From assembly GCF_963675165.1 (NCBI RefSeq), contig NC_087387.1:1433001-1497000 (forward strand): a stretch of DNA of 64,000 nt, in the 5' to 3' direction. A program made the translations under genes and the position numbers. The notes beneath the pieces were generated by a model. The model ran no database searches. It was not told the origin of the DNA and worked only from the letters and a program-made list of their open reading frames with translations. Of the stretch, positions 20,808 to 63,489 are shown one piece after another. The stretch's first letter is position 1, and every line of letters starts with the position of its first letter. Source of the DNA: Halichondria panicea. Taxonomy: Eukaryota; Porifera; Demospongiae; Suberitida; Halichondriidae.

Positions 20808-23534
20808 TCAAAGTCGTTCAGATAGACTATCCGACTCAGACGACTCCATACAGATCTCCACATCAGTGGCCACCTGGAAGGGACACAGACGTATAATTAT
20901 GTGAACCATGCATGCATATACAGTTCAAAAGAGAGTAAGCATTTCTACTTCAAAGAGATGCGCCTGTACTAGCCTGAAGAGTGCCTACATTACAACCCTT
21001 CTGCCCCTCTAATTATAAAACAGGAAGTAGTTAGAGGAGGTACGACATCCGCGTGTCATCCGCATGTCTTTAACACACACATTTCGAACTTTGACCTAAG
21101 GAATGTGTGTCTAAAACGTTTTCTTTGACACGCGGATGTCGTACCTCCTCTGGGAAGTACTGGTGCTTTGTGCAAGTATTGGCACAGTCAGACTATAATA
21201 CATGTATGCGCTGTGGTACTGCTAACTCGATCTCCTCACCTCTGGAGTCTGTTGCTGTGTCACGAGAGAGGACTGTGAGATGTTGGGGACTACAGAGCCC
21301 ACCAGAGGCACAGGACTGGAGATGAGGGGAGACATGGAGGGCATGTTGGACAGTTGGGTAAGGAGTGTCACATTACCACCTTCAGATTCAACACTGCACT
21401 CTGTGTATGAGGGGGTGGGTGAATAGTACTGTAATGAACCATACACTGTGCATTGATAGGGAAGTGTGGGCACGCATGACTGATGTACACGTAGTTAAGT
21501 TATTCTACAAATAGAGCAGACATGTTTTTGATAACACTGCCGGTGCCAGCCAGGTGCTCTCAGCAGTGATGTTGCCTGGCTATTTTCAATCTACACACAT
21601 TTGCCTCCTATATACCTATAATTATAGCCTATATAAACTTTATTGTGTGGTAAACTAGGCTCCAACCACCACCAACCATGTGGGCACGTCCCTGACACAG
21701 TACAGTACACAGTGTCTACACCAATACACATGTACAATCATACCTTTCCCCCCAGGGACCTGATGTACAATCAGAGGGCAGTCCTTGTGAGCAACCAGGA
21801 TGGACTTGAGTTGCTGCACCTCTGACCGAAGCATTATCACCTCTTGGTGAAGGTTGTGATTCACAACGGTTATATCTTTAGACTTCTTTTCCAAGTCCTC
21901 GACCCACACCTTCTTTTTAGCTCGACATCTTGAAGCAGCCGCCCTGTTTCGCTCCAGGAACTTCTGTCTCTTCACTTCAGGGGTGTCATCGTCAGGTTTA
22001 CGCCCTCGCTTTCTGGGGGGAGGCAATCACAAAAGACGAAAACCTCTTAGACATGTACATGTACATAAATGGTGGTTCAAGGCTGCAAATAAAGATAGGA
22101 ACAAGACAAAAAAAGCCTCACCTTCGTAGAGGTTGTGAGGGTACAGCAAAATTTCCATCATCAGGGTCGCCAACGGTAACGATGGTGGTAGCGTTCTCTG
22201 ACATCTGTGAGAAAAAAAAGACACCAGTGACAAAACGGATTTACATTGTATCCATCAAGACTTGACAACCTGCGATTAATTGAAAAGTTCATGTACGTGC
22301 AGGAGCCCATAAACTATATAATAACAATGGGCTCCTGGTACCCGCTATACGGCTCAACTCTTCCAGGATTAACTGATGTAGGTACAAGCAGTTCACTCAC
22401 TGGTGATATGTTTTTGAGAGCTTGAGCCAGTAACTCTGAGCTCGTCATGCCACCGCCACTACCTCCCAACTGTTGACTGATGGCCTGCTCCAAGAGCTTC
22501 TGTTGTTCCTTCATCTGGATGGTTTGCAGTAGCTTCTGCTTGGTGAGCGCAGATGTGCTGTTAACGTGTGTGGGAGCCGATGCCATGGCAACCGGTTTGT
22601 CTGGGTTTACGAGAGTAGGGGGTGGGGCCACGGGGATGGTAACAAGGTTAGCGATATTCTCAGCAGACGAAAAGGCGTCTGCATAGGTGATCAAGATAAG
22701 ATAACTAAATGGGCGAAGGCAACAACATTGTTAAAAATGAAAGTCTACTGCCATACACACCCCTTAGTTACCAATGCTGTTGTTGGTGTCTTCACTGTCA
22801 GTGTCTCCATTGGGCTTAGTCGTGGCAGAGTGGAAGTCCTGGTCAAACGGGTTGTCCAGATCTTGGAACAGTCCCGCCTCTTCGCAATTGCGTAGAAAAC
22901 GGGTGGGCGTAGGCGTCTGGTCTGCGGAGGAAAGTTAAATATGAGATCAGTTTTAGGCTTGTATGTACCTACCTACAGTGTGTAGGCACTTAACAAACTA
23001 CGATGTACAAGTCAAACATACTGCAAGCTTTTAGGCTTTGCTCAAGGCTTTTAAGCTTTTAGGCTTTTTTGTACAGGTATAAAGTAGCTAAGGGTTCTCA
23101 CTTACCAACCACCAGGGCATCAACTCCCTTGAACTTGAGAGTGAACTCGTGTCTTGCCTGATGAGTTTGAAGGTGGTCATGATTAGCAAACCTCTGCATT
23201 TAGGGATTAGTGGAATGATGTAAGTCTATAAGAGAAGGTGACATCATGGCTAGCTACACAAAATGATGTAACTAAATTTTTGACAGAATCAAGTAGTGTT
23301 CAGCTATTCTCCATCTGTCCATCGTGGATAGTATGTCTACGACAAAAATAATAATATATACTGTTGTAGTTTACGGTAGCTCTTGATATATTGGCTTTCT
23401 TCTTGGCCTAGGCCTTTGCTTTATAGCACTATACAAACTACTATACTAGCAACTATCTAGACTACGTTTTTTAGCTTTACCTGGCCACAACCAGAGGTAG
23501 GACATATAAACGGTTTCTCACTGTCACTAGACAT
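20808..23534 (-). CDS. ATF2: ATF2/ATF7-type bZIP transcription factor
   Basis: Stress-responsive CRE-binding factor. Exons: 23534-23481, 23193-23106, 22921-22772, 22678-22401, 22204-22122, 22012-21744, 21400-21240, 20873-20808; phases close to 382 aa (human ATF2 505). Residues about 8-37 form the N-terminal C2H2 finger of the transactivation domain (KPFICPTSGCGQ, then RFANHDHLQTHQARH). DQTPTPTRFLRNCEE follows, matching the ATF2 segment phosphorylated by JNK/p38 at the two TP sites. The middle is Gln/Ser-rich. The bZIP (residues about 220-285) has RQKFLERNRAAASRCRAKKK as basic region, then a heptad series ending in LVAHKDCP, characteristic of ATF2/7/CREB5. ATF2, ATF7 and CREB5 arose by vertebrate duplication, so the symbol marks the family. 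Three CRE-like sites lie 58-98 bp upstream of the start. Confidence 0.94.
21033..21151. repeat. Inverted-repeat element, AGAGGAGGTACGACATCCGC family
   Basis: AGAGGAGGTACGACATCCGC at the left and GCGGATGTCGTACCTCCTCT at the right are exact inverted copies, extended by GTGTCA/TGACAC. The 119 bp element lies in the ATF2-like gene's last intron. Confidence 0.85.
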
Positions 23535-23591
23535 CGTGAAAGCTTCTAACTTTGAAAAGGAACGTACAAAACTGGAACTTGTGTGAAATAA

Positions 23592-23632
23592 TGACGTCAT
23601 GCGTCACCATTCTGACGTGATTGATGACATCA
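23592..23632. promoter_or_regulatory. Cluster of three CRE/ATF sites upstream of the ATF2-like gene
   Basis: TGACGTCA at 23592-23599 is a perfect palindromic CRE, followed by TGACGTGA at 23613-23620 and TGACATCA at 23625-23632. They lie 58-98 bp upstream of the ATF2-like start codon, in a 197 bp gap to the stop of the next gene. The placement suggests regulation by the gene's own product or by CREB-type factors. Confidence 0.65.
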
Positions 23633-23731
23633 CATGATTATAAAATAAACATTGAAACACACATCAACACACATCAATGAAAATAAAACTGCACAGTTTG
23701 TCTATAGCACTAGGTACATGTAGCTACGGTA

Positions 23732-26700
23732 TCAGTGTGGTAAAGGTGGTAGGGGCATCGATACTCTCCGAGAATGGGGTTCTGTAATGTTCTGCATTGA
23801 CATCTCTATGAAACGTCTTCTCTCTTGAAGAGTGTGATATTGCTGACGCAGCATTAAGAGACGTCCATGGGCACTGGGAAAGTAAAAATAAAAATAATGC
23901 GTATACAGGGTAGTCAACGTAAGCAACTGATTGTCACATGACAGCATTGTCAACTACACTGCAGCATCAGTTTAATCACTCTTATTCTCTTATTTATGGG
24001 CTCATGGTATAATGTACACCCTCGACTTACTCTTGCAAGCTTTGTTTCCTTCTTTGTTTCTCCCTCTTGCTACAAGGAATGTCGGCCAGGCGTCTCGCTG
24101 CCTCTATAATCCTCTCCTCAATTTCCAGCTCCTTTTGCAACAGTGATATGCTCTCGTCTGATATGTCTGCCGTATACAGGTCTACACTGTGGGGGCGTGT
24201 TGCTCCCAGTAAGGGGTGGGCGGAGCCTCGTTGATCATCCTCCCCCACTGTTGTTGACCGTTGTATTGATTTACGTCCTGCATGTGGGCAGAGAATACAA
24301 TAACACATAGTACCGTGTGTACATGTACGGATGTAGCATGGCCTTTGCTTACACAGCATGCATGCTACAAAAACATGAATGGAGGAAATTATCACAAAAC
24401 AACTCCACCCCAAGTTTTTAAATCAACAATGTAATCATACGTATAATTATGTATAGTACATGACAGTTTATAGCTATGCTCCTCTATTCATTCAATGCCT
24501 CTTACTCTTGTGTAATTTTTTTATGGATTGCTGAGGTCTTTTGATTGATGAGAAGTTGTTCCTTCGCGGCGGGGGCAGTGGAGGGGGGAAATCATCATCA
24601 GAGGAGGAGTCCTGAGAAACACACATTTTGTATCATGTAATGTACATAATTATCGTGATGACAGGTACACATTTAAGGTACATGCAGAAAATTTAACGGT
24701 AGTTATATAGACATGCAGTTTGAGGTACATGTAAAATGGACAATTGTGAAAAGCTCCTTGCTGTACAAGTAAAATCTGCAAAACCCCACTGCTACTTAGA
24801 CTCGCCAGCCAGCCCTTCTTCGGGGTAAGGGACTGGTGGATTTCCTATCTGAGAGTTGTGCCGGTGGAATTTTAATGAGTTGCATGACATCATGTATGAC
24901 ATCATCATGTGGTTTGTAATGTCTATATGCGATATGCGTGGGTTGCAAACAGCTACACAATTACAAATAAGCTCCTCTTGCTTAGTTTGTGGCAGAGAAA
25001 CCAAGAAACATTGAGAACTGGTGGTAGAAGGCTACTGTCAAGCCCTTTCCATCCCCACATACTTTCAGACTGGAAAGATTTTCTCAAATGTAAGACAAGT
25101 GGTGCAAATCATCTACATACTAAAGTCACTGGAGGATTTGTCTCAATTGCAGCTTGATTGATAAGCTCTGCTTGGTCGCTTAATCTTGCACTAGCACAGT
25201 CTTGCCCATCCATTATTTTGTTATTATCATGCGTTCTACCACAAAGAAACTAACTAAGCGATACTGTGGGCCTAAGAATGTCACATGACATTGATACTGC
25301 ACTCTGATTGGTCATTACCAGATTCAAGTAACGGCACAACTCTCAGATAGGCAATCCACCAGTCCCTTACCCCGAGGAAGGGCTGGCTGGCGAGTCTAAC
25401 TGCTACTGTATACCGCACACACACACACCTTATTAGGACATGGTGTGGTGAGTAGCTCCCCATCAGCTGACAGACAATGCTCAGAGTAGTAATCAATCAG
25501 TTCACTCAGTCTCAGAAACGATCTTTTGGCTCCAAACAGCTCGTAACGTGTCTTTACCCCTTGCTTTGTGTCTATCCTGTAGTGCTTGACTTTGCCGTTG
25601 TGTGTGAGTGACAGTGAGTGCTCCCCCTCACGATTTTGTGACTCTCGAACCAGAAAACAATCGGACTTGACGGATCCGAGTGCTTTTTCAGCTGCTGGTC
25701 GAGAAATCATACCATGGTACCAACTGTGAGGAAAGAACAGAAAAAATAATAACACATAGCGGGTAATTTTCGTATGAACTACCCATTTAAATATGACGTA
25801 TGTTGAATCTATTGCGGTATAATTTTCGTATGATGTGCTCTTCAATACGAATTATACGAACATTTCCATCAGACGAAAATACCCCGCTATACTGTACATA
25901 CACACTGGAAATTAAACTATACTAAGTATATAATATGCAAATATAGACATACCTAATACCCAAGTGATCCATCACACACGTACAATGGCCACATGCAGTA
26001 CGCATAATTATTAAAACAGTTTGAATAGTTGTCAGTGCTATTTCCACTCACGTGTAGGAGGAGTGGTGTTTGTGCAGAGGAGAAGAGGGCGTGGCAGCTG
26101 CTTGAGGCCCTGACGTACGCACGTCTTTCCCCCAGCTCCTCTTTTTAGCTCCTGCATGTCCGCTCTTAGCAGGGGACTTTGGAGAGGCTGGTGAGGCTCG
26201 TGACGGTGACATCTGTGGCGGAGAGAGGTGTGGTCGTGCATGGAGTGGGGGGTGTGACTGCGAGGCTGGGGAGCTCGGTGGGAGGGTCAATAATGGAGGC
26301 TCATTCTCCACCTGTACAGAGGGTCATGTGATAGTCATGTGACTGGTTGGGTGGTATAGTTATATCAGAGGAGGTCTGACACGAGTACCTCGATTAAGCT
26401 AATTTGAGGTAATGCCTTTACTGTTGCATTTGCACATGACCAAGCCTATCTAATCGAGGTACTTGTGTCGGACCACCTCTGTATAGTCATGTGATATATC
26501 TTACAGGAGGGATGGAGGTGACTGAGGAAGGGGAGGAGCAGCCAGAGTCTTCATCAGAGTCTTCAGAGATAACAGGTTGCCGGATCATACTGAGAGCCTT
26601 CTCCTATAGCAACAGATCTATCAATATAATATATATACACACGCCATTTGCAGATTGCATATGCTAGCTTTATTATTTAAGTTGCGAGCTCTCAAAGCTA

Positions 26701-29163
26701 ATGTAAGTGTGCTCTTACCATCCTCAGCCTGTCTGAATTCCGACGAGTATAACTGCGTCTAAACGCTGCAAAAAACACAAACAAAAGAACTTCAATAATA
26801 CACGTAATAACTCCACCACACAGGCACTGTAATGTGCTTCTTCTTAAATGGCATTTTCAAGGTCAACACAATGTACATGCACTGGTTTCTGGCTCACCCT
26901 GCTGTAGTTTCCTAGCCGAGGTGTGGATCACAGAGAGGGCGACTTGCAACTGACCAAGATGCCATGGCTTCAACAAAACCTGCAGTGATGCATGTGTATG
27001 GGTTATAGTTATATATTTATTATATATAGTTTAAGCGAATATACGATAAATGCACAGAGAAAAGAAACTAGCTGCACGTATATTATGGCATGAGTTCATT
27101 CAGGGTGGGTAATTTGAACCATTCAATGTTGTGATTAGGAAAACTGCATAGAAGTAAAAAAAAAACCATAGGCCTTTAGTGTTCCATGCTAGGTCATAAA
27201 GTATATATAAATACACAACAGAGCCTGAGGGTACTGTATAGCGGGTAATTTTGGTTGGTGCAAATTTTCGTACGAACTATAAAAAATTATATTCATTAAA
27301 TATTTAAATATTCGTACAGCTCAGGATAGTGACGTTGAACCTATTGAGCCAGAAAAAATTCGCAGTTTATTTTCGTACGTGTTCTACTGACAAAAAAAAA
27401 CACGAAAATGTTTACCCTAAATGTGCATTGTGATTGGAATGCTTTCATTTAATTATTCATTGCATGTTTTGTAAACCACAAACACAACATTCCACAAACA
27501 TAACATTCCTGTGATGTATCAGTATAAATAGTTATAGTGTAACATAAACACTTGTAGGCTAATTGTCCAAAATGAAATCAAACAGAAAACAAACAAATCA
27601 AAAAACAGTACGAAAAGAAACGGAAAAAAAAAGAAAAAAAGGCAGAAAAAGAATTCAATAATAAACTAACAATAAGCATTTGAACAAGGGCCGGTGGTCT
27701 ATAGTATTTGGACACTCTTTGGGAGAGTTGTCCATTGTGGATTTATTTATTTTTAAACCTTTTGACAACATGCAGCCCTTAATGGTGTTTCTATCCTGAG
27801 TTAGGTCATTTCGCTAAATTAATTATTATAACATTGAGGTAGAAAATTAGACAATCAAAACTTCAAGTTATGAGCACTCAAAGTTAGCTACGAATAAAAA
27901 CTACGAATAAAAACACCAATGGTAGCGATCTTTCTCTGCCGCCATTTCACAACTACTTACACTTCTTATCACTCCCTCGCCCAAAAAAGTCTTGGCAGGC
28001 AAGATTGTTTCTTTACTGTGAGCTAAGACTTTTAAGTCTCGGCTTTACATTTATACGTATATAAACTACACTTTTTCTTCAAAATTGGAACAGCACATAA
28101 ATATCACAATAAAAAGGATCGAGGTCGTAAATATGAAAAAGCTGGGAGCAGCCCACTGTTGACTCTAGCTCACCTGATGTGAGCCCACTAGATAGTCCTC
28201 TAGCTGGGCGGCCTGGATGAGTGCTCGACAAGTCTCCGAGGGAGAGTGGGTGGAGTTCTTACAGATGAGCAGGGGGGAGTACGAGTCTATGAACTTGTCA
28301 TGTGATATTCGGACGGGGTAGCCACAAGATTGGATGAGGGCTGTGTCCAGAACACGAAGGTGTTGGAGCTGAGTCAGCACGTGGGAGGAGTCAAATTTTT
28401 TATCCTGGAACAACAAAAATATAGAATGTTTTGCGAGCCATCAAACATATTTTGTGTACTTGTGGTGATGATGTTATCGTTACATTCCACACAAATAATA
28501 TGTGCATGCATGTACATGTAACTAATTATATAATCGCATGTACTGATCAGGTGTGTAACATGAGTAAGGTAACATGAGTAATTGCAGGGTGGGGTGTTAG
28601 AAATGAGTATGTGTGTGAAAAATAAAACGTATGTCAATAAAAGGGTGACGACGAAATTGATACAACAAGATCAATGATACCCAAACACACACACAGTACA
28701 TGTACGTGGTGGCATTGAAGAATGCTGCTTATAGCCACGCGGTTGGAAAAGTGCCATAATTATAATTATGCCTTATTATATATTTACACTGTACTTCGGT
28801 AGGTAGGCGGGGGGGGGGGGGACATGATATTCATGTGCACAGCACGTACACAAGCTGTCATTTATTACCCTAAAGAATGCTCTAATATGCCTCTTGTTTA
28901 CTACCCATGCACCTTTCTGGTTCTCACCACAACACATGGTGATAGAGTCGGACAATAAAACCTAATAGGGAGCTAGGAATGTACACTCCAGCTGGTGTAC
29001 AATTGAATTATGCAGCACAAAGGGCACACTGTATTACATGTAAGCACTGAAATGTTATTGCTGCAAAAGCCTACTAATGCTCATAGTCCAGTTTTCAAAA
29101 TGTGCCCTAACTGTACACATATCACTGGCTACAGTAATACAGTATTCAGCACACCCACGCACG

Positions 29164-29202
<39 letters not shown>

Positions 29203-29203
29203 C

Positions 29204-29257
<54 letters not shown>

Positions 29258-32200
29258 CGTACTGTCTCCTCTTCTCCAGTACATAGAGTGAGCACAAAGT
29301 GTGGTTGACAAAAGGTCACCTCCTCGCACACTCTACTCATACAGTCTCTCGCTCGGTTCGTCAGAGAGTGGGCGTGGTCAGGCAGAATAACATCAGGACT
29401 AGACTCCATCATCATCTGTAAATAGATCGACTGATAATAACCGTCACCTCGCAAACATTCTAGGTACATACGGTAAATAATTATAGTTCTGTATTTGGTA
29501 AGCAATTAAAATCTTGTGCACACCAAGATCTTAATAATATCTACATAATAATTATACATGTACAGTGAGTATAATACATGTACGTACAGAAACAGATTTG
29601 CTAGTCTTAAGAGTGGTATAATTATGTTTTAAGTAACAGATGTGTCAAACCTTTGAGATATCTTGGAGTACACTGTTAGTAGAGGTGCGGAGGAGGCGTG
29701 TCAGGTCATGTGACACTGAGTGTAGCTTATTCATTCTCGGCCAATTTTCAGTCACCACATAACTCTGCTCTCCAGTAAAGTGGGACACCACAAAAGTATC
29801 AGACTGCAGAGAGATTGCGAGTAAATATATCAAAGCAACATTGTAACATGATAAAATGGAACTAATTATGAAAGGCAAAACACTGCTATAGTAATAGGTA
29901 TGGTCATTACTGAGAGTTCAAAAAGGTCATCTCCCAAAGATCACTTTCTCTAGAAGCTCACAGTTAGAAAACTCAGCCTATAAAACTATTGCATAAATTA
30001 TATGTACTACTAAACTCAAACAAAATAATGACCTCATTCACACAAATACATATCACGTACGTCTGTTTCGTAGCATGTGTCTCCACTTCCATCACAAGTG
30101 GTGGAGAGCGCAGTGAGTAGCTCATGAGTGGAGTCCAGACCAACACTCTGCAGTAACCCATCCGTCTGTGGGGGGTACGTGGGTGTGGGGGGTACGTGGG
30201 TGTGGGGAGTACGTGGGGGCAAAGGTCAATACATACATGCAGGGATGTGTCCACACTAGTACTGGTCGGTGGTGGTTGGTACTAACCACCTCTTAATTAC
30301 CACATGTTGTTATAAGGGAAAATTTGTTTAGCCACAAACTTAGGCATATCGATATACATTGTGCATACCTCAGTCTAGCGTGGATGGTTTTACATGTACA
30401 TGTAGTTACTTATACAGTAGTACATTTTAAGGCCTCATTTGTAGCGAAATAATTATACAAGTTGCATCATGCTTAATTAACCGTCTAAAGTGATGCTGCT
30501 ACATTCTTCAGAGTCCACACCCAGATATAAAAATGGGACAAAGACGCTTATATATTTCTACTTGCGAGCAAACTTCAAGTCTTCAGGTGTGACTGTGCTC
30601 ACCTTGTGAAAGGTATCCATGAGTGTTTGGTTGAACTCCACTGGGACTGTCTCCCACTCCACACCTTCCTCTTCGTATTGCTCCTGTGTGGAGGAGGGAG
30701 GGGCATAGCATCAGGTGAATCACATGTATGATCATGTGATCTAGCTATTACACAAACTGACTTTGAGACCCCAAAAAGAGATCACCACTCTATTAACAAT
30801 AATTATTATCTCCAAGAAGCATACAATTACATGTATATGCATGTTGATTGGCTACACATTTGTACACTGCCTAAGCCTTGTTGTGTTGTACTGTCTCCAG
30901 GACAACTACTGAGCATGCATGGGTGCACACAAACAGTGACTTGTACTGTCGTTCTCAAAAGTGCAGACTAGCACATAAATTATAAGGTTCAATTAGGGGT
31001 GAAATACGTTCTCTCAAGGGTGATCAACCTAAACCAACAGGATAGCAACACATAGATAGTAGGAGTGCATGAATACACTCCTGATAGTAGCTAGTTTAAC
31101 CCTCACCTGTTCCCACACGAAAAGCCTTTGACAGTAGAGGTTGTGCAGTGCCTCTGAGCAATAGCGGCCCACCAAGTCAGGGAGGGTGTTACGGTAACTG
31201 TCTGTCCACATTCCAGGCTGATTCACACACAGCACTCGACGGGGGGTCTCAGTGGGGGGTGGGGCAAGTTCAGAGTTCAACCAGCTCACTGGATAACCAA
31301 AATGCAATTGTAACTTGGCAGTAGCACTATATTTTTAGCCAAGTACTTAATTGTAGGTATATAAACAAACTACCTACCAAACATATTTCCCATTAAAAAA
31401 TCCCTTTCACTTACCTGTCCAAGCCACAAGATAGGTGTACAGCTGTTGTGCCAAGATGGTGCCTGACTCAGTGTGTAGTTGCACTCCTAGGTAACTGCTA
31501 GCTTCACCTCCCTCCAATAGTAGCCTCACTGCACTCATCAGCGCCAGGTAATTGTCTCTTAATGGCAGGGGCATACCCAATTCCTCCAGTTTTTCCCTCA
31601 CAACTTCATTATGTGCCAGCACCTGCGAAAATGCAATTTGCTGTTAATTAAGTGAAAAATTGGGGCAATAAGAGGAATATTCAAAATAGCACAATAATAC
31701 ACCTTTGATGCTATAACTAGAACGTAATAATTATGTTCACTAGAGTAATAATAATTATTGTAAGAGAGTTAGTAAACAAAACAATGAGCGACACCTCCTA
31801 CACATTTTCGTTTCCTAAAGAGCAAAGGAAATAATAATGGTGTCAGGGGTAAGATTTCATGGTATGCTTAATAGGTACAAACTAGGAAACCAAGTACAAA
31901 CAGGATGTCTGGCTATACTAAACACTGCGGTTGGGGAGAGAACCAAGTTACTGGGCCAGCCTGTAAACACACCATACAGAGCTAACCTAGTGTTGATGGG
32001 TAATCACACTTATATTAGTTCAAACAAACTTGTGATTTAAGGGGACCAATTATTATGAAGACCTTATAAGACTCCAATTCAAATTATATAGTAATGAATA
32101 AGTTTATGATTGCAGTGCAAAAAGCGTATCAAATATACAGCTCTTAATTATAATACCTCGAAATTATTCAGTGTTTTGGTGTTCAGTAGCATACAGGAGA

Positions 32201-32746
32201 AGTGCCCTCCAGTGGTCTCCATGGTAGCAGGGTCCACATAGAGAGAGGTAGTGAGCACACACTCGGGTAGTCCCTCATGGCTTGTCAGTAGAGAGAGCAA
32301 CTGAACTGCAGCCATTAGTGTGCCTGTGTGTTTGGAGCTGGCTTGAGAGAGGAGAGAGGCAACCACACTCTGGAATATAGCAGTCTTGTGTGCAGCCTTG
32401 CAGCCATAGAGTAGCAGACACTGATCGTCTTCTTGCATTTTCAGGTCGTGCAGAATGTTTGCAGCAAGTCTGTTGGCTTGCACGGGGATGGTGTGGGTAG
32501 ATGGGGACAGGTAGAGAGATACATTCCTACCAATGTGTGCCTGTGCAGAGGAATGATATGAGTGCTGCATGCAGTGAGCTTTACATGTGTGCAGAGATAT
32601 ATAGTTTATTCATGGCTAGCTAAAGCATGAATATGACTACTGCTCACATGCTGTATTCCTCGCATGTAGCGACTTTCTAAGCACGATAGTAGATTGCTGT
32701 CACTGAGCTCTTGGAGAGTGCACAGATCATCGCCATGGCATTCCAT
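23732..32746 (-). CDS. Myosin-derived protein with degenerate motor, IQ motif and SH2 domain
   Basis: Seventeen exons, all phases closing to 957 aa: 32746-32648, 32540-32157, 31622-31415, 31288-31107, 30683-30603, 30165-30061, 29803-29651, 29415-29263, 28404-28174, 26979-26898, 26765-26719, 26603-26505, 26311-26052, 25723-25429, 24611-24506, 24277-24031, 23873-23732. Residues about 1-545 follow the myosin head in order: DDLCTLQELSDSNLL and RYMRGIQHAHIG at the start; ALHNLYCQRLFVWEQEQYEEEGVEW; FVVSHFTGEQSYVV; QPHFV; GYPVRISHDKFIDSY; LKPWHLGQLQ. The P-loop is GCKAAHKT (79-86) instead of GESGSGKT, NxxSSR of switch I is absent, switch II DIxGFE is replaced by CVNQPGMW (251-258), and CIKPN is lost. 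ATP hydrolysis is therefore unlikely. One IQ motif (LQQAFRRSYTRR, 557-568) follows, then a Ser/Pro-rich linker and an SH2 domain (about 696-785) with FLVRES intact (Arg721), so phosphotyrosine binding is expected. The tail has an acidic-proline segment and a coiled-coil-like region. I cannot assign a myosin class. It is divergent to SEC61G. Confidence 0.88.
24796..25398. repeat. 603 bp element with about 70 bp terminal inverted repeats
   Basis: TAGACTCGCCAGCCAGCCCT at 24796 is inverted at 25398, and pairing runs on through TTCGGGGTAAGGGACTGGTG and the ATCTGAGAGTTGTGCCG word. The interior has no convincing coding frame. It fills most of the intron between SH2 exon 14 and exon 15 of the myosin-like gene, so any remaining splice signals lie at its edges. 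Confidence 0.85.
25753..25895. repeat. MITE-like element, interior type C, copy 1
   Basis: It starts ACATAGCGGGTAATTTTCGT and ends CCCCGCTATACTGTA. The interior shares CGTATGAACTACC, TGTTGAATCTATTGCGGTA and ATTTTCGTATGATG with 42343-42521. Terminal words match families A and B. Confidence 0.75.
26367..26480. repeat. Inverted-repeat element, AGAGGAGGTCTGACACGAGT family
   Basis: AGAGGAGGTCTGACACGAGT and GTGTCGGACCACCTCT form the ends, and GTACCTCGATTA pairs with TAATCGAGGTAC inside. It is a relative of 21033-21151 and lies in an intron of the myosin-like gene. Confidence 0.8.
27232..27418. repeat. MITE-like element, interior type C, copy 2
   Basis: It starts TACTGTATAGCGGGTAATTT and shares TCGTACGAACTA, ACAGCTCAGGATAGTGACGT and TGAACCTATTG with 42343-42521. 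The right terminus is lost after ACGAAAATGTTTACCC. It sits in the 1.2 kb intron of the myosin-like gene, which otherwise holds only AT-rich sequence. Confidence 0.7.
29152..29258. repeat. (CA)n microsatellite on the donor of myosin-like exon 8
   Basis: A CA run with CCACG interruptions ends within a few bases of the exon limit at 29263. In the transcript the donor GTACGTGTG leads straight into the GT tract. Confidence 0.9.
31623..32156. other. Myosin-like gene intron 2, no gene seen
   Basis: This 534 bp intron has a 67-codon plus-strand frame (31837-32040) without a recognisable motif. I regard it as chance. Confidence 0.5.
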
Positions 32747-33011
32747 TATGATTTCTTTGGACTGTTTCTAGCTAGCTAGCTATAGATTTATTTGCTGATA
32801 CTGGATTTTGAGTTGTAGTACAGTGCTAGTGCTAATAATAATTATAGTCGATCTAGGTCAAAGGTCAAGCAAGACGCCCCCTTACTGAAGTTTCGTTTAA
32901 TTGAAAAAGAATTTTTGAAATAACACGTTGACCAAAGTGAAGAAAAAAAGCCTTTGTTCCTCAGTCTGATCCTTTGCTTACCCAGTATCTGTTGATTGAA
33001 AAAGAAAAAAG
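32747..33011. promoter_or_regulatory. Shared divergent promoter, myosin-like gene / SEC61G, with a DR1 site
   Basis: 265 bp separate the start codons. AGGTCA-A-AGGTCA at 32855-32867 is a perfect direct repeat with one-base spacing, the classic HNF4/RXR nuclear-receptor site. Binding in this animal is inference. Confidence 0.55.
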
Positions 33012-33376
<365 letters not shown>

Positions 33377-33488
33377 CTTGGGGATTCAGAAGCATAGTTT
33401 ATTATACATGACAGCATTTCGGCAATCTACAATAGTAATGACTGTATATATAAATAATTATATTTATATAGCGCAATATTTTTGATTG

Positions 33489-36400
33489 TCACTGTTCTGT
33501 TTTATTTGCTGTCTGTTTGAATGTAATTAGTAGCCATAAGACGAGAGAGAACACACTAACAGCTCTTGTGAAGTGGAGTAGCATCCCTGTGTGGTGGGAG
33601 GAGGCGGTTATATATTGTGTGGTGTGGGCGGATGTGCATGTGTGCATGGTGGTAATTTAATTAGATAAAGGTTTCAATTAAGGCTAATAAATGGTATGGG
33701 GGTTTACTGTAGTGGTTAAGAGATAGAGGAAAGAATACCTGTGATGACGGTGTGTGGTGTCAGTGCATAGTCCACAGCCAATAAGATAATCAGTCTCAAC
33801 ACCTCGATCTTAGCACTCATGGGACTGTAGAAAATGTCGTGAATTTGTTCACACACATTATGATGTAACGACTACACTATATGTATTAAAAATAGGCACA
33901 CAATGGCAGTGATACCAGTACTAAATTAAAGGAAGAAAGCTTCGTATACGGCCAAAAATACGCTTGGATCAAGCACAGTTTCTACTTTAGCACCCATGCA
34001 CAGTGTAAGATACACATACATGCAAGTATAGATGAGATGGAGTGCATATGTTACACTGTGACAACTCTTACTTGAGATCAAACAAAAGCCCAATGTTTGT
34101 AAAATAAAGAATCAGGTAAAAAATGACCAACAGGGAGACAAAATAGGGGGCTTTCAGTTTGTCCAGCTCCAGAGATAAGTAGACTGCAGTAGTGAATTGA
34201 ATGCCGGTGTAGACAGTGAGCCACCACGAAGTAGGCTTGCCAAATCTTGACTTCAAATGTGCGGATACCTAATGTGAGGGAATTATAGACTTGTTTATGT
34301 GTTGTCTAGACAAACATACAAACAGAGGCAAACACAATTGAATCACTGCGCAGTCACTACCAACAATGCACAACTTACATAAACAAAGACAAGGGCTGGA
34401 AGCAGTTCAATTGAATAGCATAATCTATGTACAAATATTATGTTTCCACTCACACATTTATAAGAGGGGTAGTTAGTTCCCAAGGCTGCATACGCCACTT
34501 ACTAAAGGATAAACATTCTTGCACATACACGATATGAGTTGTGTATACAGTACAGTCACTCACGGGTGGGTAAGGTTCGGAGTAGACGAAACCCATTCTC
34601 CCGTGACCAGGAGTCCAACTGGGAGAGTAGAACAGAAACCTCAACTTCTCCGTAATGCCTTTGTGGGACCATACTCTCCGAATAATGTGAGCAAACACAA
34701 AGAACTGAGCATAAATGGGGTTCCAAGTTTTGGGCTGGTGCATTAGTCCATAGTAGACCTTCTCCTTCTCCTCGGCAAATGTTCCAAACATTCGGTCCCA
34801 GATGATCAGCACACCAGCTGAAGATGGAGAGTAACGCTCAAATAAATTAATGGTGAAAATATTTATAATAACAACAGTACATGAGGCACAATGTATGTGC
34901 GATCAAATAGTTCGGATACTGTAATACTGAAAGCTTTTTGTGTGTGAGGAACTACTGGCAGTTGATAATTTGATAGTCCCTCCTTTATACAAACAAACAG
35001 AGCGCGCACACACAATAGCTAGTATATAGAATCAAGATGTCTGTAGCCTAATTTAAATACGTATACCGTATAGTGGGTATATTTTGGGTATAATATTCAC
35101 GGTTTTCGCTGATTATAGTGATAAGCATGTACTCCAAACAATTTATACCCACGGCTTTAATATTGCATGCATGCATGCTGCAAAAGGCTTTTCCGCGAAA
35201 ACCTTTCAAACGGTCTTTCCGCAAAAGTTTATACCCGCTATATGGTATACCGTTTGTTAGTGGACCACGCACGCACCATAGTTCTTGTCAATGCAGTAAG
35301 GGTTAGTGCCGTGATGCACTCGGTGATGAGACGGAGTGTTGAGGAACCATTCTAGAGGGCCCAGTTTGTTCACTACCTCCGTATGGATCCAGAACTGGTA
35401 GAGCAGGTTAAACTGCTTGTGAACCACGTACATTGCAGGTGGCATAAAGAAAGCCATCGGTAAATAGAACATCTGTATAATAAAGATAATAAAATAAATG
35501 AGAGCATGGTGGAAATTGAATAAATAATCAAGGGCATGGTGGTGGAAGTTGGTGTCTTAGTTCTCTACCACAAAGGGCGTAGGGAAGGCTGCTGTGTTGC
35601 TGCAGTAACCAGGGTTACTAATTAATGTATTAGCTCAGGAATGAGTGAACAACAATGTCAGACACGCTACATGTAAGTGTGTGAATTGTAGGAATGTGCC
35701 AATATTAGAGGTTTCAATACTAGATGTAAACCAATTTTCAAGGTACTAAATTTTGGTCAATCCTCGAAAGCCTCGAAAATTTCGTGCCTCGAAAATAACC
35801 AGCTATACAATAGTACATTAACTTGCACACAATAGCTAGCTTGCAAGATGTTAAAACTCACCCAAGAGCTGAATCGCTGCATGACAGACTGTCTGAGTGC
35901 AGTGGAGAGTGTGTAGTCCTGTGAGCTGTGATGCACTTGATGTGCCGCCCAGAACAGATTGATCTCTGAGATTGAAGTGTGCGGGAAAACAGTTTAATAC
36001 TCTGACAGAGATTTTGTATCCTACATGTATCAATCTTTGTATGCTATTCAAACTCTCCTAAATGTACAATAGCTCAAACAAAGTTACGAAAAGCGATTAC
36101 TATAGACCAGGCAATAGATTAAAAGCGTGGAGGAGTACAAAGGCAGTAATTGTTGTAATTCTCTGGGTAAGGAAGACCACACCAATTATCTGCTTCTACA
36201 ATCAAACTTCATTGAAATACTGTACAATTTTGTTTTGCATTATATATTTACCATGAGCCATCCTGTGGAACCAATAATAGAAGAAATCGATCAAGATCAT
36301 AGCAATCCACCAGGTAGCCGCAGAGTCCCAGGGCAGGGGATAGAAATAGAAGTTCTCGTAGATCCAGGCATAGATGACAATCTCAAATGTTCCAATAATT

Positions 36401-39289: not shown

Positions 39290-40891
39290 CTAATTGACAG
39301 AAATAATCTGAGAATTGATCTTGGGAACAAGCAACAATTTGTTGCCTTGGGCAACATGAATGAGATGTGTGTCACGTGACACTGACTGTCCAGAGCTACG
39401 ACTGTATTTTTTGTACACCCTTCTCTCGGCTGCTAAACTCCTCTCCTTGAGAGACTTTATTTGCGATCGAAGTTGATCGTACCGCGTGTGCAGTTCTGTC
39501 TTCTGTTGTCTCATAACCTCTACTTCCGATTCAAGACCACCCACTTCTTCTCTCTTTCTCTTTCGAGCGACTTGAGCAGCGGTCTTGTTCTTTCCTCGCC
39601 GACGCCACTCTTTCATAAATGCCACCTCAATATCGTTCAGTTTAGCTAGGTCCAACAGATGGTTGAACTCTTCGACAGGCATTGAGATCAATTTACTACG
39701 AGAAGTGGGCTTGCTTGGAGTGGAAAGGTTGGGTACCAGCAGCTTGTGTATAATGTCATCTTCATGCTTTCCAAACAAAATTGTGCTCTTTGTTTTCGTT
39801 TGCTCTGCAGATGGACTCTGTTTTGGTTTTGGTTTTACATAATCATCGTTGTCAGTAGAACTCGGAGATGGAGCTTCGTAACTAGTTTCTGGAGAAGAGG
39901 GATACTGCGGAGACATCATCGTCACTGGTTCAGGAGAATCGTTAATTCTTTTCGGAGGTGGCGGAAGAAAAAGGTCCATATCGAGGTTCAAAGAAGAGCC
40001 CCAAAGTTGTTGTAAGTTATTCTCCTCCCAGGGCGAGTCTTGGTTCATTGGTGAAGATACTGTAGCAGCGCTTACTGGACTGCTTTGTCCGGAGGTGTCA
40101 GTCAGCAAACTATCGGTGGACGGGGCTGGATACAATCTAGGCTGCATCCGGAAGTCATTGACGAACGGATCAACTTGTTTTTCGGTATTCTGAAACACAT
40201 CCATCGAAGATTCTTTGGAAACAGCTTCTCCCCAAATTCCAGTGGAATTGTCAGTAATGTTTTCATTCTCGACTGGTGCAGAGTTTCCGTAACTGAACTG
40301 AAGTGGCTGATCAGGAATTAAATAATCAGGTGCAGCTTCTTGTTTAAGAAAAGGATTCGCCAATAGCGCTGACAAATCAAAATCGAGTTTGCCTGGGATG
40401 GTGTTATCAAAAGAAAAAGTATCCTTTTCAAACGGATTGAAAATGTTGCTTGCATCTTTTTGAGGGATGAAGTTGTTCGATGATGTGGTTTGGATTATGT
40501 TCTCGTTGTCCACTGGGTATGCTTGAATATTAGGGTCATAGTAATTGTTCTGCTGTGGGACAGTGGCAAAAACATCAGTATAGGTGCTCAAATACTTCCA
40601 CGATTTGTCCATAGGTATGTCGTAAGTCTTTGGTCGAGAATAGTCATTTCCGAAGGAATGCGTCTGCTTGTTTAAGTATGCAGTATCGCTCCCAGAGCCA
40701 ACTTGTTTCAGTGTGTTGAAAGCCTGCAATAAAAAAAACATGGTTAAATTCCTGACAATATAAATCTATAACAATGCTAAAGTTGCATGATTTCATCAAT
40801 ATTATTTGAGTTATCTCACCTTTGTAATTTCACTATCCTCTGGTTGAGGTTTGATGATAGGCTGAGCCAGTAGAGGGCCTGTAATGACCAT
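39290..40891 (-). CDS. NFE2L: CNC-type bZIP transcription factor (NFE2L/NRF family)
   Basis: Regulator of antioxidant and proteostasis genes through Maf heterodimers. Two exons, 40891-40820 and 40723-39290, give 501 aa. A long acidic, Asn/Ser/Pro-rich activation region precedes a CNC motif at about residues 375-405 (ISMPVEEFNHLLDLAKLND, matching ISMPVDEFNELL). The bZIP begins WRRRGKNKTAAQVARKRKRE, where RRGKNKxAAQ is the CNC signature; the Asn-Cys usually following Gln is Val-Ala here. A leucine-type coiled coil follows. The C-terminus HVAQGNKLLLVPK resembles the Neh3 end of NRF2 (DGNVFLVPK). I find no ETGE or DLG, the KEAP1-binding motifs, and no N-terminal membrane segment as in NRF1. It is divergent to COPZ and convergent with NIFK. 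Confidence 0.92.
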
Positions 40892-59554: not shown

Positions 59555-61054
59555 ATGCATGGAATTTCTTCTCGACTAAGTGCAAGAAAATCTCGCAGGC
59601 AATCTGCTGGGATCAAACCTCAGCGACAGAAGCTATCTTTTTTCAAAACTCTCAAGTCTGTTCTCCTTTGCTCATTTTACAGCAAAGAAAATGTTGTTAA
59701 TGAGGGGAAATCTGTCGAGGTAAATAAATTGCATTTGATATTCAAGTATTTGCAATTGATATTATTTTTCTGTAGTTTGCTAGCTATAAATGGAGTGAAC
59801 ATGCACAATTTAACATGATACTGATAACAAGTTTATTCTTAACAACACTAGTACATATTATTATTATTATTGTTACAGGAGATTGAACGACAACCTGGCA
59901 ACCTTGAGCCCACTACTAGTACTTTTGACTCCGATTATGATGATAATATCAGTATCATCAGCCTTGGAGAGACCACATACGTAGGAGCTGGCTCCTTGTC
60001 AAGAAGTATAGTATAATTATGTATGACCATAGAATGTTAGCCGAATGATTACGTTGTTAATGTGCTTCTCATAAGTTATACTATATTTTGTTGCTATGCA
60101 GAGTCTCCTTCCTCGTCAGCTACCCCAGGCAAAAAAACGTTGCCTCCCATCAATCACAAGAATGTTAACTCTGCACTGAAAAGTATACCAAAGCACGGGA
60201 GCTGGAAGGTCATTACTTGTGGAAGCTCCTCAACCTCAACAAGCATCAAGGAGCTGTCAGATACCAATATTGTGGCCACGATTGATGAGCTCCAAAAGAA
60301 AATTGATGTGCTTCAGCAGACAAAAAGTGCTAACCTGCAAAAACTGTTGCAGCTGATTGAACAAAATAAGAAAGATGTAAAACCACAAGTACTGCTGAAA
60401 AACCTAAAGGAGACAAAAATAAGTCTAAGAAAACTTCTAAGCGAAAACGAATCCTTTGAAAGCAAACTCAAAGAGCTTGCTAGGTCTTGTTCTAAGACGA
60501 CAGGTATTGAAGAAAGTGGCCCAACAAAATTTGATGGTAGAGCTGTGAGCAACACCACTACAAATCTACCGAGTAGCAGCCAAGTGCATCTGAATACAGT
60601 TGCACCTGCACCTTCGTCAGAAAAAGTGGTGAGATTCAATTCTCTCCCTACAGAGAATGTCCGAGCTCAGTCTTGCCATCCAGATAACGAAATAGGCCTT
60701 CCCCTGCGGCACAGCTCGGCTCTACGAAGATTCCTGTTGGCCCCGAGTGCCAGCACATCATCAAGAAGTGAACGTAGGCTAACTGAAATGAGAAGGGTTG
60801 AGCGAGAGTCGCACGAGCCCATGTTTGGCAAGAGGCCACGAGCTGCCCACCACTCACGCATTCGCAGCGTGACACAGAACATACAAGAATACCTGCCTTA
60901 CGAGTGCGAGCACCTTGATAGTGACTCCGAAGATGAATCCTCAGTCTCAAGGAAGTACGTCAGACAACACCCTGGAAATGAGGGAATGAGGAAATTCGAG
61001 CTTACACAATGTGCAGCTCCCCAAACCACACGTCACTGTGAGAATATAAACTGA
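59555..61054 (+). CDS. Unrecognised coiled-coil protein, tandem copy 1
   Basis: Three exons, 59555-59719, 59879-60005 and 60102-61054, give 414 aa. I do not recognise the family. The N-terminus is basic (RKSRRQSAG, KPQRQKLSFFKTLKSVL). Exon 2 is acidic (STFDSDYDDNISIISLGE). A predicted coiled coil spans about residues 148-226 (IDELQKKIDVLQQTKSANLQ onward). A Ser/Thr-rich stretch, an Arg-rich segment (RRFLLAPSASTSSRSERR, FGKRPRAAHHSRIR) and an acidic DSDSEDESS cluster follow. No signal peptide or membrane segment is seen, so a nuclear or cytoskeletal role is possible but unsupported. If intron 2 is retained, translation stops four codons past the exon end. The ATG is the one conserved in both copies; upstream in-frame sequence exists. 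Indels against copy 2 within exons are multiples of three, which supports coding. Confidence 0.85.
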
Positions 61055-62052: not shown

Positions 62053-63489
62053 ATGCATGGAATTTCTCGACTGAGTGCAAGAAAATCTCGCAGGCAATCT
62101 GCTGGGATCAAGTCTCAGCGACAGAAGCTGTCCTTTTTCAAAACTCTCAAGTCTGTTCTCCTTTGCTCATTTTACAGCAAAGATGATGTGGTTGTCCCTT
62201 CTAATGAGGGGAGATCTGCCGAGGTAAATGAATTGTGACTTATTTTTCTGTAGTTTGCTAGCTAAAATAATAGAGTGAACATGCACGATTCTATTATTAG
62301 ATAATAATAATAATTGTTACAGAAGATTGAACAACAACCTGGCAACCTTGAGCCCACTACTAGTACTTTGGACTCCGATTATGATGATGATATCAGTATC
62401 ATCAGCCTTGGAGAGACCACATACGTAGGAGCTGGCTCCTTGTCAAGAAGTATAGTATAATTATGTATGGCCATAGAATGTTAGCTGAATGATTACGTCA
62501 TTAATGTGCTTATCACTATATTTTTTTGCTATGCAGAGTCTCCTTCCTTGTCAGCTACCCCAGGCAAAAAAACGTTGCCTCCCATCAATCACAAGAATGT
62601 TAACTCTGCACTGAAAAGTATACCAAAGCACGGGAGCTGGAAGGTCATTACTTGTGGAAGCTCCTCCACCTCAACAAGCACCAAGGAGCTGTCAGATACC
62701 AATCTTGTGGCCACAATTGATGAGCTCCAAAAGAAAATTGATGTGCTTGAGCAAACAAAAAGTACTAACCTGCAAAAACTGTTGCAGCTGATTGAGCAAA
62801 ATAAGAAAGACGTAAAACCACAAGTACTGCTGAAAAACCTGAAGGAGACAAAAATAAGCCTAAGAAAACTTCTAAGCAAAAACGAATCCTTTGAAAGCAA
62901 ACTCAAAGAGCTTACTAGGTCTTGTTCTAAGACGACAGGTATTGAAGAAAGTGGCCCAACAAAATTTGATGGTAGAGCTGTGAGCAACACCACTACAAAT
63001 CTACCGAGTAGCAGCCAAGTGCATCTGAATACAGTTGCACCTGCACCTTCGTCAGAAAAAGTGGTGAGATTCAATCCACTTCCTACAGAGAATGTCCGAG
63101 CTCAGTCCTGCCATCCAGATAACGAAATAGGCCTTCCCCTACGGCACAGCTCGGCTCTACGAAGATTCCTGTTGGCCCCGAGTGCCAGCACATCATCAAG
63201 AAGTGAACGTAGGCTAAACGAAATGAGGAGGATTGAGCGAGAGTCGCACGAGCCCATGTTTGGCAAGAGGCCACGAGCTGCCCACCACTCACGCATCCGC
63301 AGCGTGACACAGAATGTACAAGAATACCTGCCTTACGAGTGCGAGCACCTTGACAGTGACTCCGAAGATGAATCCTCAGTCTCAAGGAAGTACGTTAGAC
63401 AACACCCTGGAAATGAGGGAATGAGGAAATTTGAGCTTACACAATGTGCAGCTCCCCAAACCACACGTCACTGTGAGAATATGAACTGA
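62053..63489 (+). CDS. Unrecognised coiled-coil protein, tandem copy 2
   Basis: Exons 62053-62223, 62323-62449 and 62537-63489 give 416 aa, collinear with copy 1. Exon 3 has the same length in both copies (953 bp) and I count about a dozen amino-acid replacements in it, many conservative (I/V, S/T, K/E). Exon 1 differs by a one-codon deletion and a small in-frame insertion (VVVPSNEG). The introns differ in length (99 and 87 bp versus 159 and 96 bp). The frame is intact, so both copies look functional. An extra in-frame ATG lies directly upstream (62050). The retained-intron stop after exon 2 is also conserved. Confidence 0.85.

Follow-up and report, generated by a model that had tools for sequence, protein, structure and literature searches.

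Myosins that carry an SH2 domain in their tail are known from several holozoans. The tails of class XXVIII myosins, which occur in Nematostella, Xenopus, chicken and some fish, are made of an IQ motif, a short coiled coil and an SH2 domain, and seven SH2-bearing orphan myosins were described in Monosiga (PMC2375034). Capsaspora has been added to the holders of class-28 myosins; according to the cited part of that paper, its 2017 myosin dataset keeps this class and leaves out, for divergence, class-17B, class-77 and one orphan (besides fragments, partial sequences and pseudogenes), which suggests that class-28 heads are alignable (PMC5583752). SH2-tailed choanoflagellate and filasterean myosins have also been placed in a myosin III-like group, together with one Amphimedon and one Oscarella sequence (PMC3942036). 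Myosins devoid of ATPase activity form another known set: in myosin-18, two conserved serines are replaced by Ala and Thr, and myosin-18A binds actin (PMC7900500). We describe here a gene of the sponge Halichondria panicea, located in a window of 64,000 nucleotides (assembly GCF_963675165.1, contig NC_087387.1, positions 1,433,001 to 1,497,000), in which a myosin head with a degraded ATP pocket is joined to an SH2 domain.

SH2-tailed myosins and ATPase-dead myosins are each documented, and the first-pass annotation of the window rightly noted the former in holozoans (PMC2375034, PMC3942036). Searches of the open-licence PMC papers, supplements excluded, turned up no report of the two combined in one protein, a myosin with an SH2 tail whose ATP pocket is lost. 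We think it probable, though by no means certain, that the gene is functional and encodes a nucleotide-independent pseudo-myosin used as a phosphotyrosine adaptor.

Gene model and domain content

The gene lies on the minus strand and reads open through 17 exons from the ATG at 32746 to the stop at 23732 (window coordinates are used throughout, unless a contig is named). The first-pass annotation had joined 17 exons in phase, which holds, and had counted 957 residues, which does not: the hand-built model gives 938. Since the GT donors and AG acceptors were chosen by hand, with the aid of three-frame reading, the phase and the splice signals of the model (GT-AG at 16 of 16 introns) are partly so by construction. 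Independently of the hand reading, we also searched 22500-34500 for splice sites with a profile-driven script that had been trained on other myosins of the genome. At its first setting this splicing script covered the region between relay helix and converter, and eight of its ten boundaries (31107, 30683, 30603, 30165, 30061, 29803, 29415 and 28404) were identical to those of the model, the donors of exon 7 (29672) and exon 8 (29263) being different. The minus strand scored 213.1 versus 58.6 for the opposite strand at the same setting.

Both domains proposed at first are recovered by Pfam in this single protein. Myosin_head matches the 938 residues at E 5.6e-21 (74.9 bits, curated cut-off 33.3), and a profile built on 17 myosin heads of the same genome scores it at 94.4 bits, so the match is not due to chance. 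The closest solved structures to the head are those of myosin VIIa (2.2e-12) and myosin XV (2.7e-12), and a piece starting at exon 9 matches Myosin_head at 1.2e-6 (27.5 bits). The N-terminal half is much weaker; it is counted as myosin because its 232 residues alone reach 8.5 bits with the own-genome profile, versus a best of 5.7 in 1000 shuffles (792 reported), and because its first intron is shared with other heads (see below).

The order of the head elements can be followed along the exons, and the motifs quoted by the first-pass annotation are all present, including the DDLCTL start, FVWEQEQYEEEGVEW, GYPVRISHDKF and LKPWHL. Exon 1 (32648-32746) carries the start codon and the myosin N-terminal DDLCTLQELSDSNLLSCLESRY. 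Exon 2 (32157-32540) holds a degenerate nucleotide-binding region, in which GCKAAHKT (32382-32405) aligns on the P-loop GESGAGKT. A shortened upper 50-kDa region follows in exon 3 (31415-31622), then the relay helix up to FVWEQ in exon 4 (31107-31288), where CVNQPGMW (about 31206-31229) stands in the place of switch II, and the end of the relay region, EQYEEEGVEW, in exon 5 (30603-30683). Exon 6 (30061-30165) encodes a shortened helix-loop-helix, the canonical actin interface; exon 7 (29651-29803) carries FVVSHFTGEQSYVV; exon 8 (29320-29415) corresponds to loop 2 and the lower region, and exon 9 (28174-28404) to the converter region (QLQHLRVLDTALIQSCGYPVRISHDKF). The CIKPN motif, noted earlier as lost, lies in a region that is mostly deleted in the alignment with the own-genome heads.

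The SH2 domain is encoded by exon 14 (25429-25723). Pfam SH2 matches residues 677-755 at E 4.8e-17, with 62.3 bits against a cut-off of 21, and the FLVRES motif with its Arg is present, as first annotated. The domain also retains ISR and KHYRI, which we take to be parts of the phosphotyrosine pocket. With its profile match and its FLVRES Arg it qualifies as an SH2 of the phosphotyrosine-binding type, and binding is thus likely. Its best matches in the Protein Data Bank (PDB) are RASA1 (2.8e-18), SYK, PLC-gamma1, SHP2 and ABL, signalling and adaptor proteins that resemble the present one by a complete FLVRES SH2 and by proline-rich segments; here, by contrast, the SH2 is joined to a pseudo-motor some 540 residues long.

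Between head and SH2, exons 10 (26979-26898) and 11 (26765-26719) encode the start of the lever and a single IQ-like stretch, LQQAFRRSYTRR, and exons 12 (26603-26505) and 13 (26311-26052) a linker that is acidic, then Pro/Ser-rich. The consensus of the IQ motif is IQxxxRGxxxR. The stretch resembles it loosely and lacks the Gly, and Pfam reports no IQ match at E up to 10, either in the full protein or in cut-out pieces. The IQ motif announced by the first-pass annotation is thereby reduced to this one degenerate stretch, through which the protein may bind calmodulin. Downstream of the SH2, exon 15 (24506-24611) encodes the proline motif PPPLPPPRR and a basic stretch; LPPLP is another proline-rich segment. 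Exons 16 (24277-24031) and 17 (23873-23732, with the stop codon) form a C-terminal helical region with a likeness to HR1 (residues 854-911), which is a hint only, all scores being below the Pfam cut-off of 33.1 bits (15.5 in the full protein, 17.4 and 21.2 in cut-outs, with E 2.9e-4 for a 72-residue piece). Five solved structures, all consensus or engineered TPR, also matched the tail (best E 2.7e-4); no single stretch was significant, and the TPR identity was set aside as helix similarity. Two inverted repeats lie in the introns of this part of the gene, a MITE-like insertion in intron 14 (24796-25399; 68-base arms, 97% complementary, 468 bases apart) and a smaller one in intron 12 (26366-26481).

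The ATP pocket and the ancestry of the head

The 131-Mb assembly of the same genome served as a control. Of twenty myosin loci fetched, 17 yielded a head long enough to be used; L024, L026 and L027 were dropped. L026 and L027 (G000:C8:6240000-6249000 and 6311500-6320500) are partial heads, probably duplicated fragments, the L027 piece recurring with an identical score at C8:6331362. Seventeen of the 20 loci contain GxSGxGKT. Among the 17 assembled heads, 14 have the P-loop GESGAGKT (L020 starts after it), switch I is NxNSSRFGK in 15 and switch II LDIxGFE in 15. Most heads of this genome thus keep the canonical motifs, and the losses described below are not a genome-wide habit. Two heads depart from the others: L023 (G000:C8:108000-117500) is of class XVIII type, with the P-loop GLSGSGKT and the switch I NPQATR (NPQATRC in the alignment), seemingly the Ala-Thr change, and L028 (G000:C17:5716500-5725500) is a second strongly divergent myosin, with GLSGAGKT, NKESSRIG, VVDMFGFE and RCIKSN.

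Without L023 and L028, the 15 canonical heads define 105 near-invariant columns. The pseudo-myosin keeps 35 of them and has a gap in 17. Only 5 of the 25 columns that belong to the four nucleotide elements are kept, four of these in the P-loop. The purine loop (NPxxxxxxY) is deleted (0/3 columns), a fourth lost element that adds to those listed by the first-pass annotation. Switch I retains none of its eight columns, its core SSRFG being deleted and the remainder replaced, and switch II, CVNQPGMW instead of LDIxGFE, retains one of six. In GCKAAHKT, four of eight residues are kept, including a Gly and the Lys-Thr pair, and the two inner glycines are replaced by Ala and His. The active-motor motifs GESGxGKT, NxxSSR, DIxGFE and NPxxxxxxY are accordingly all missing in their canonical form. 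The deletion of the purine loop and of the switch I core, the replacement of switch II and the degenerate P-loop support the initial reading as a pseudo-motor; the claim that every nucleotide-binding motif is lost was slightly too strong, because of what the P-loop retains. The damage extends beyond the pocket: 145 of the 585 columns of the head core are missing, the largest blocks comprising 17, 40 and 44 columns.

Intron positions connect this head to the other myosins of the genome. Intron 1 (IQH|AHIG, phase 0) falls at the IY|TYxG position, in the same place and phase as in 10 of the 17 heads; the intron FVWEQ|EQY, which precedes exon 5, is common only to L009 and L015; and HK|TDGLL is common to L009, L017 and L018, L022 being one column off. 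Kinase motifs upstream of L009 make it class III by architecture, and the intron shared with this kinase-bearing locus ties the pseudo-myosin loosely to a class III-like group. The W-E-Q relay signature, also present in L009, together with this intron gives a hint of class III-like ancestry. Pfam finds no kinase domain in the model, although no dedicated search was made; the start codon of a SEC61-gamma-like gene on the opposite strand lies only 265 bases from the ATG, which leaves little room for an N-terminal kinase.

How does this gene compare with the described systems? Like class XXVIII myosins it has a myosin head and an SH2 domain in one protein, and its IQ-like stretch and helical region may answer to their IQ motif and short coiled coil. 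It differs by the lost ATP pocket, by an IQ that is degenerate and matches only loosely, and by the helical region standing after the SH2; the cited parts of the sources do not state the motor residues of class 28 (PMC2375034, PMC5583752). The SH2-tailed members of the myosin III-like group share the tail domain, and L009 the W-E-Q signature and the FxWEQ|E intron, whereas the model shows no kinase by Pfam; the motor states of the published members are not given in the cited text (PMC3942036). Class XVIII offers a precedent for an ATPase-dead head kept as a structural part, but there the changes are small (Ser-Ser to Ala-Thr in switch I) and the tail is a coiled coil, while here whole elements are deleted, including the switch I core, and the tail bears an SH2.

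Proposed role and competing explanations

What the sequence shows is the gene model, the domains, the lost motifs, the open frame and FLVRES; from these we infer that the head no longer binds ATP, that the SH2 binds phosphotyrosine and that the protein acts as an adaptor. The ancestor would have been an intron-bearing, perhaps class III-like, myosin. As its head shrank and the ATP pocket was lost, ATP cycling most likely ceased, leaving a fixed structural module that binds partners; such a head should not move, because ATP binding and splitting are hardly possible. A partner phosphorylated on tyrosine is most likely what the SH2 binds, and the proline-rich segments and the HR1-like helical region would recruit SH3, Rho or oligomerisation partners. 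In sum, the protein would be a cytoskeletal adaptor triggered by phosphotyrosine. In its complete form, in which a myosin head, now a scaffold without nucleotide, is maintained by selection and joined to a functional SH2 as the myosin counterpart of pseudokinases, this proposal is our leading but still tentative one, to which we give somewhat less than an even chance.

Several observations weigh against it. The exon joins were read from genomic DNA alone, and at two looser gap settings the splicing script wandered outside the gene into the neighbouring region for the N-terminal part (the third setting also picked 32648 and 32540). Five of the eight head introns stand at a position and phase used by at least one other head, versus a random mean of 2.2, which is a marginal result (P 0.047). 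In a tree with the 17 own-genome heads, the end branch of the pseudo-myosin measures 10 changes per column and gives no placement, as long rows meet; the best identity to any of these heads is 23%, with L013. The pocket is little worse hit than the rest of the head, with 20% of near-invariant columns kept versus 37.5% outside the nucleotide elements (30/80), a modest contrast. The Gly, Lys and Thr of the P-loop make weak nucleotide binding possible. Moreover, exons 12, 13 and 17 fail the codon frame test described below, and the HR1 likeness remains under its cut-off.

The first-pass annotation coupled the protein to actin or another partner, and a non-hydrolysing head might still sit on actin in the manner of class XVIII, with the SH2 bringing a phosphotyrosine protein to the filaments. 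Myosin-18A sets a precedent by binding actin without ATPase activity (PMC7900500), and the relay helix, the HFTG region and the converter are among the better-kept parts of the present head. However, in the lower 50-kDa region six core columns of the helix-loop-helix, around what is KGTDLS in L012, are lost and 0/1 invariant column is kept, and most of the CIKPN region is gone. The missing blocks of 40 and 44 columns fall in the upper 50-kDa region, and the class XVIII-type L023 is less altered, both in its motifs and in its end branch (3.96 versus 10). Because the helix-loop-helix is shortened, actin binding by this head is doubtful and probably weakened; coupling to actin found no support, and we regard such a tether as unlikely, if still the most serious competitor.

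A decaying pseudogene, or a relic head retained only because the SH2 part is useful, would explain the very long branch, the barely recognisable N-terminal half (residues 1-214 alone match Myosin_head at E 0.1) and a whole-gene codon score of 0.24, below that of 16 of the 17 own-genome heads (range 0.19-0.74), these heads being the training set. Yet the 938 codons contain neither stop nor frameshift, and GT and AG are found at all introns. When two own-genome heads were let decay neutrally by substitution down to 30% identity (200 runs each), 9-32 stops appeared per head. In 14 of the 17 exons, among them all nine of the head, the annotated frame has the best codon score (in exon 8 it is tied when rounded to two decimals), and the score is negative for all 16 introns. 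The open frame, set against the expected stops, and the coding-type codon usage of the head exons indicate that the head is most likely kept under selection as a protein. Altogether, the introns shared with other heads, the profile-guided model of part of the gene, the codon usage and the uninterrupted frame favour a true descendant of a myosin that is under selection, and we consider decay improbable.

Still less probable is a weak nucleotide-binding switch, in which the Gly, Lys and Thr of the P-loop would hold an unhydrolysed nucleotide as a regulatory ligand: the Lys-Thr pair speaks for it, but the pocket around it has lost the purine loop, the switch I core and the original switch II, and the inner P-loop glycines are Ala and His. 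The large deletions relative to other heads and the hand-set exon boundaries could suggest a normal motor hidden by missing exons or misassembly, which we hold to be very improbable, since intron 1, at the site of the missing purine loop, measures only 107 bases, no intron interrupts the degenerate P-loop (exon 2) or switch II (exon 4), and profile search and motif scans disclosed no alternative exon in 12 kb. Indeed, alternative exons restoring GESGxGKT or the switch motifs, which the first-pass annotation named as the case against its own reading, were not found on the minus strand of 22500-34500. None of the patterns sought there on that strand (P-loop, Walker A, switch I, switch II and KPN) occurs, and a scan for half motifs, which covered P-loop and switch I, gave only four isolated SSR triplets.

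If the adaptor proposal is true, the myosin fold itself can serve signalling after loss of the ATP pocket, beyond ATP-driven movement, and the pseudo-myosin unites two things known separately, SH2-tailed holozoan myosins and ATPase-dead myosins. It would also offer a test case for the wiring of tyrosine-kinase signalling to the cytoskeleton in an animal whose Wnt and homeobox genes are few; the genome gave 10 exon matches for Wnt and 28 matches for the homeodomain, a low homeobox number being expected of a sponge.

Other copies and genomic surroundings

The own-genome protein search revealed no second copy of the head. Of its 48 matches, 17 are to this gene, 23 are to pieces of SH2 domains, 7 are weak matches to pieces of myosin heads (E 5.5e-5 to 0.27) and 1 is to a piece of a tail (E 0.006). 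A six-frame, exon-by-exon Myosin_head scan of the genome gave 96 matches and an SH2 scan 71. Comparing the two sets by eye, we saw no second SH2-myosin: around the listed heads, a distance of about 20 kb is free of any other SH2 match, and the nearest same-strand pair is ~32 kb apart. This is a weak negative, because the Myosin_head scan scored 65 of 129 candidates and missed the head of the pseudo-myosin itself. Bacterial and archaeal genome contigs, searched for relatives that might be carry-over from a host, gave none.

The tail side of L013, L032 (G000:C9:5285000-5294800), is a long open frame rich in proline, in which numerous tyrosines stand in an acidic context (EEIYDD-like). It lies downstream of an intact head of W-E-Q type and is a possible SH2 target.

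The SEC61-gamma-like gene stands head to head with the pseudo-myosin, in two exons at 33012-33268 on the plus strand (Pfam SecE 1.5e-6 for the second exon). A promoter shared by the two genes would suggest broad expression. Further away in the window, two tandem open frames on the plus strand (60041-61054 and 62485-63489; 337 and 334 residues) are near-identical by eye, the first without Pfam match at E up to 0.01. Finally, two bZIP transcription factor genes are encoded on the minus strand, at 39293-40765, with bZIP_Maf as best match, and at 21655-22026.

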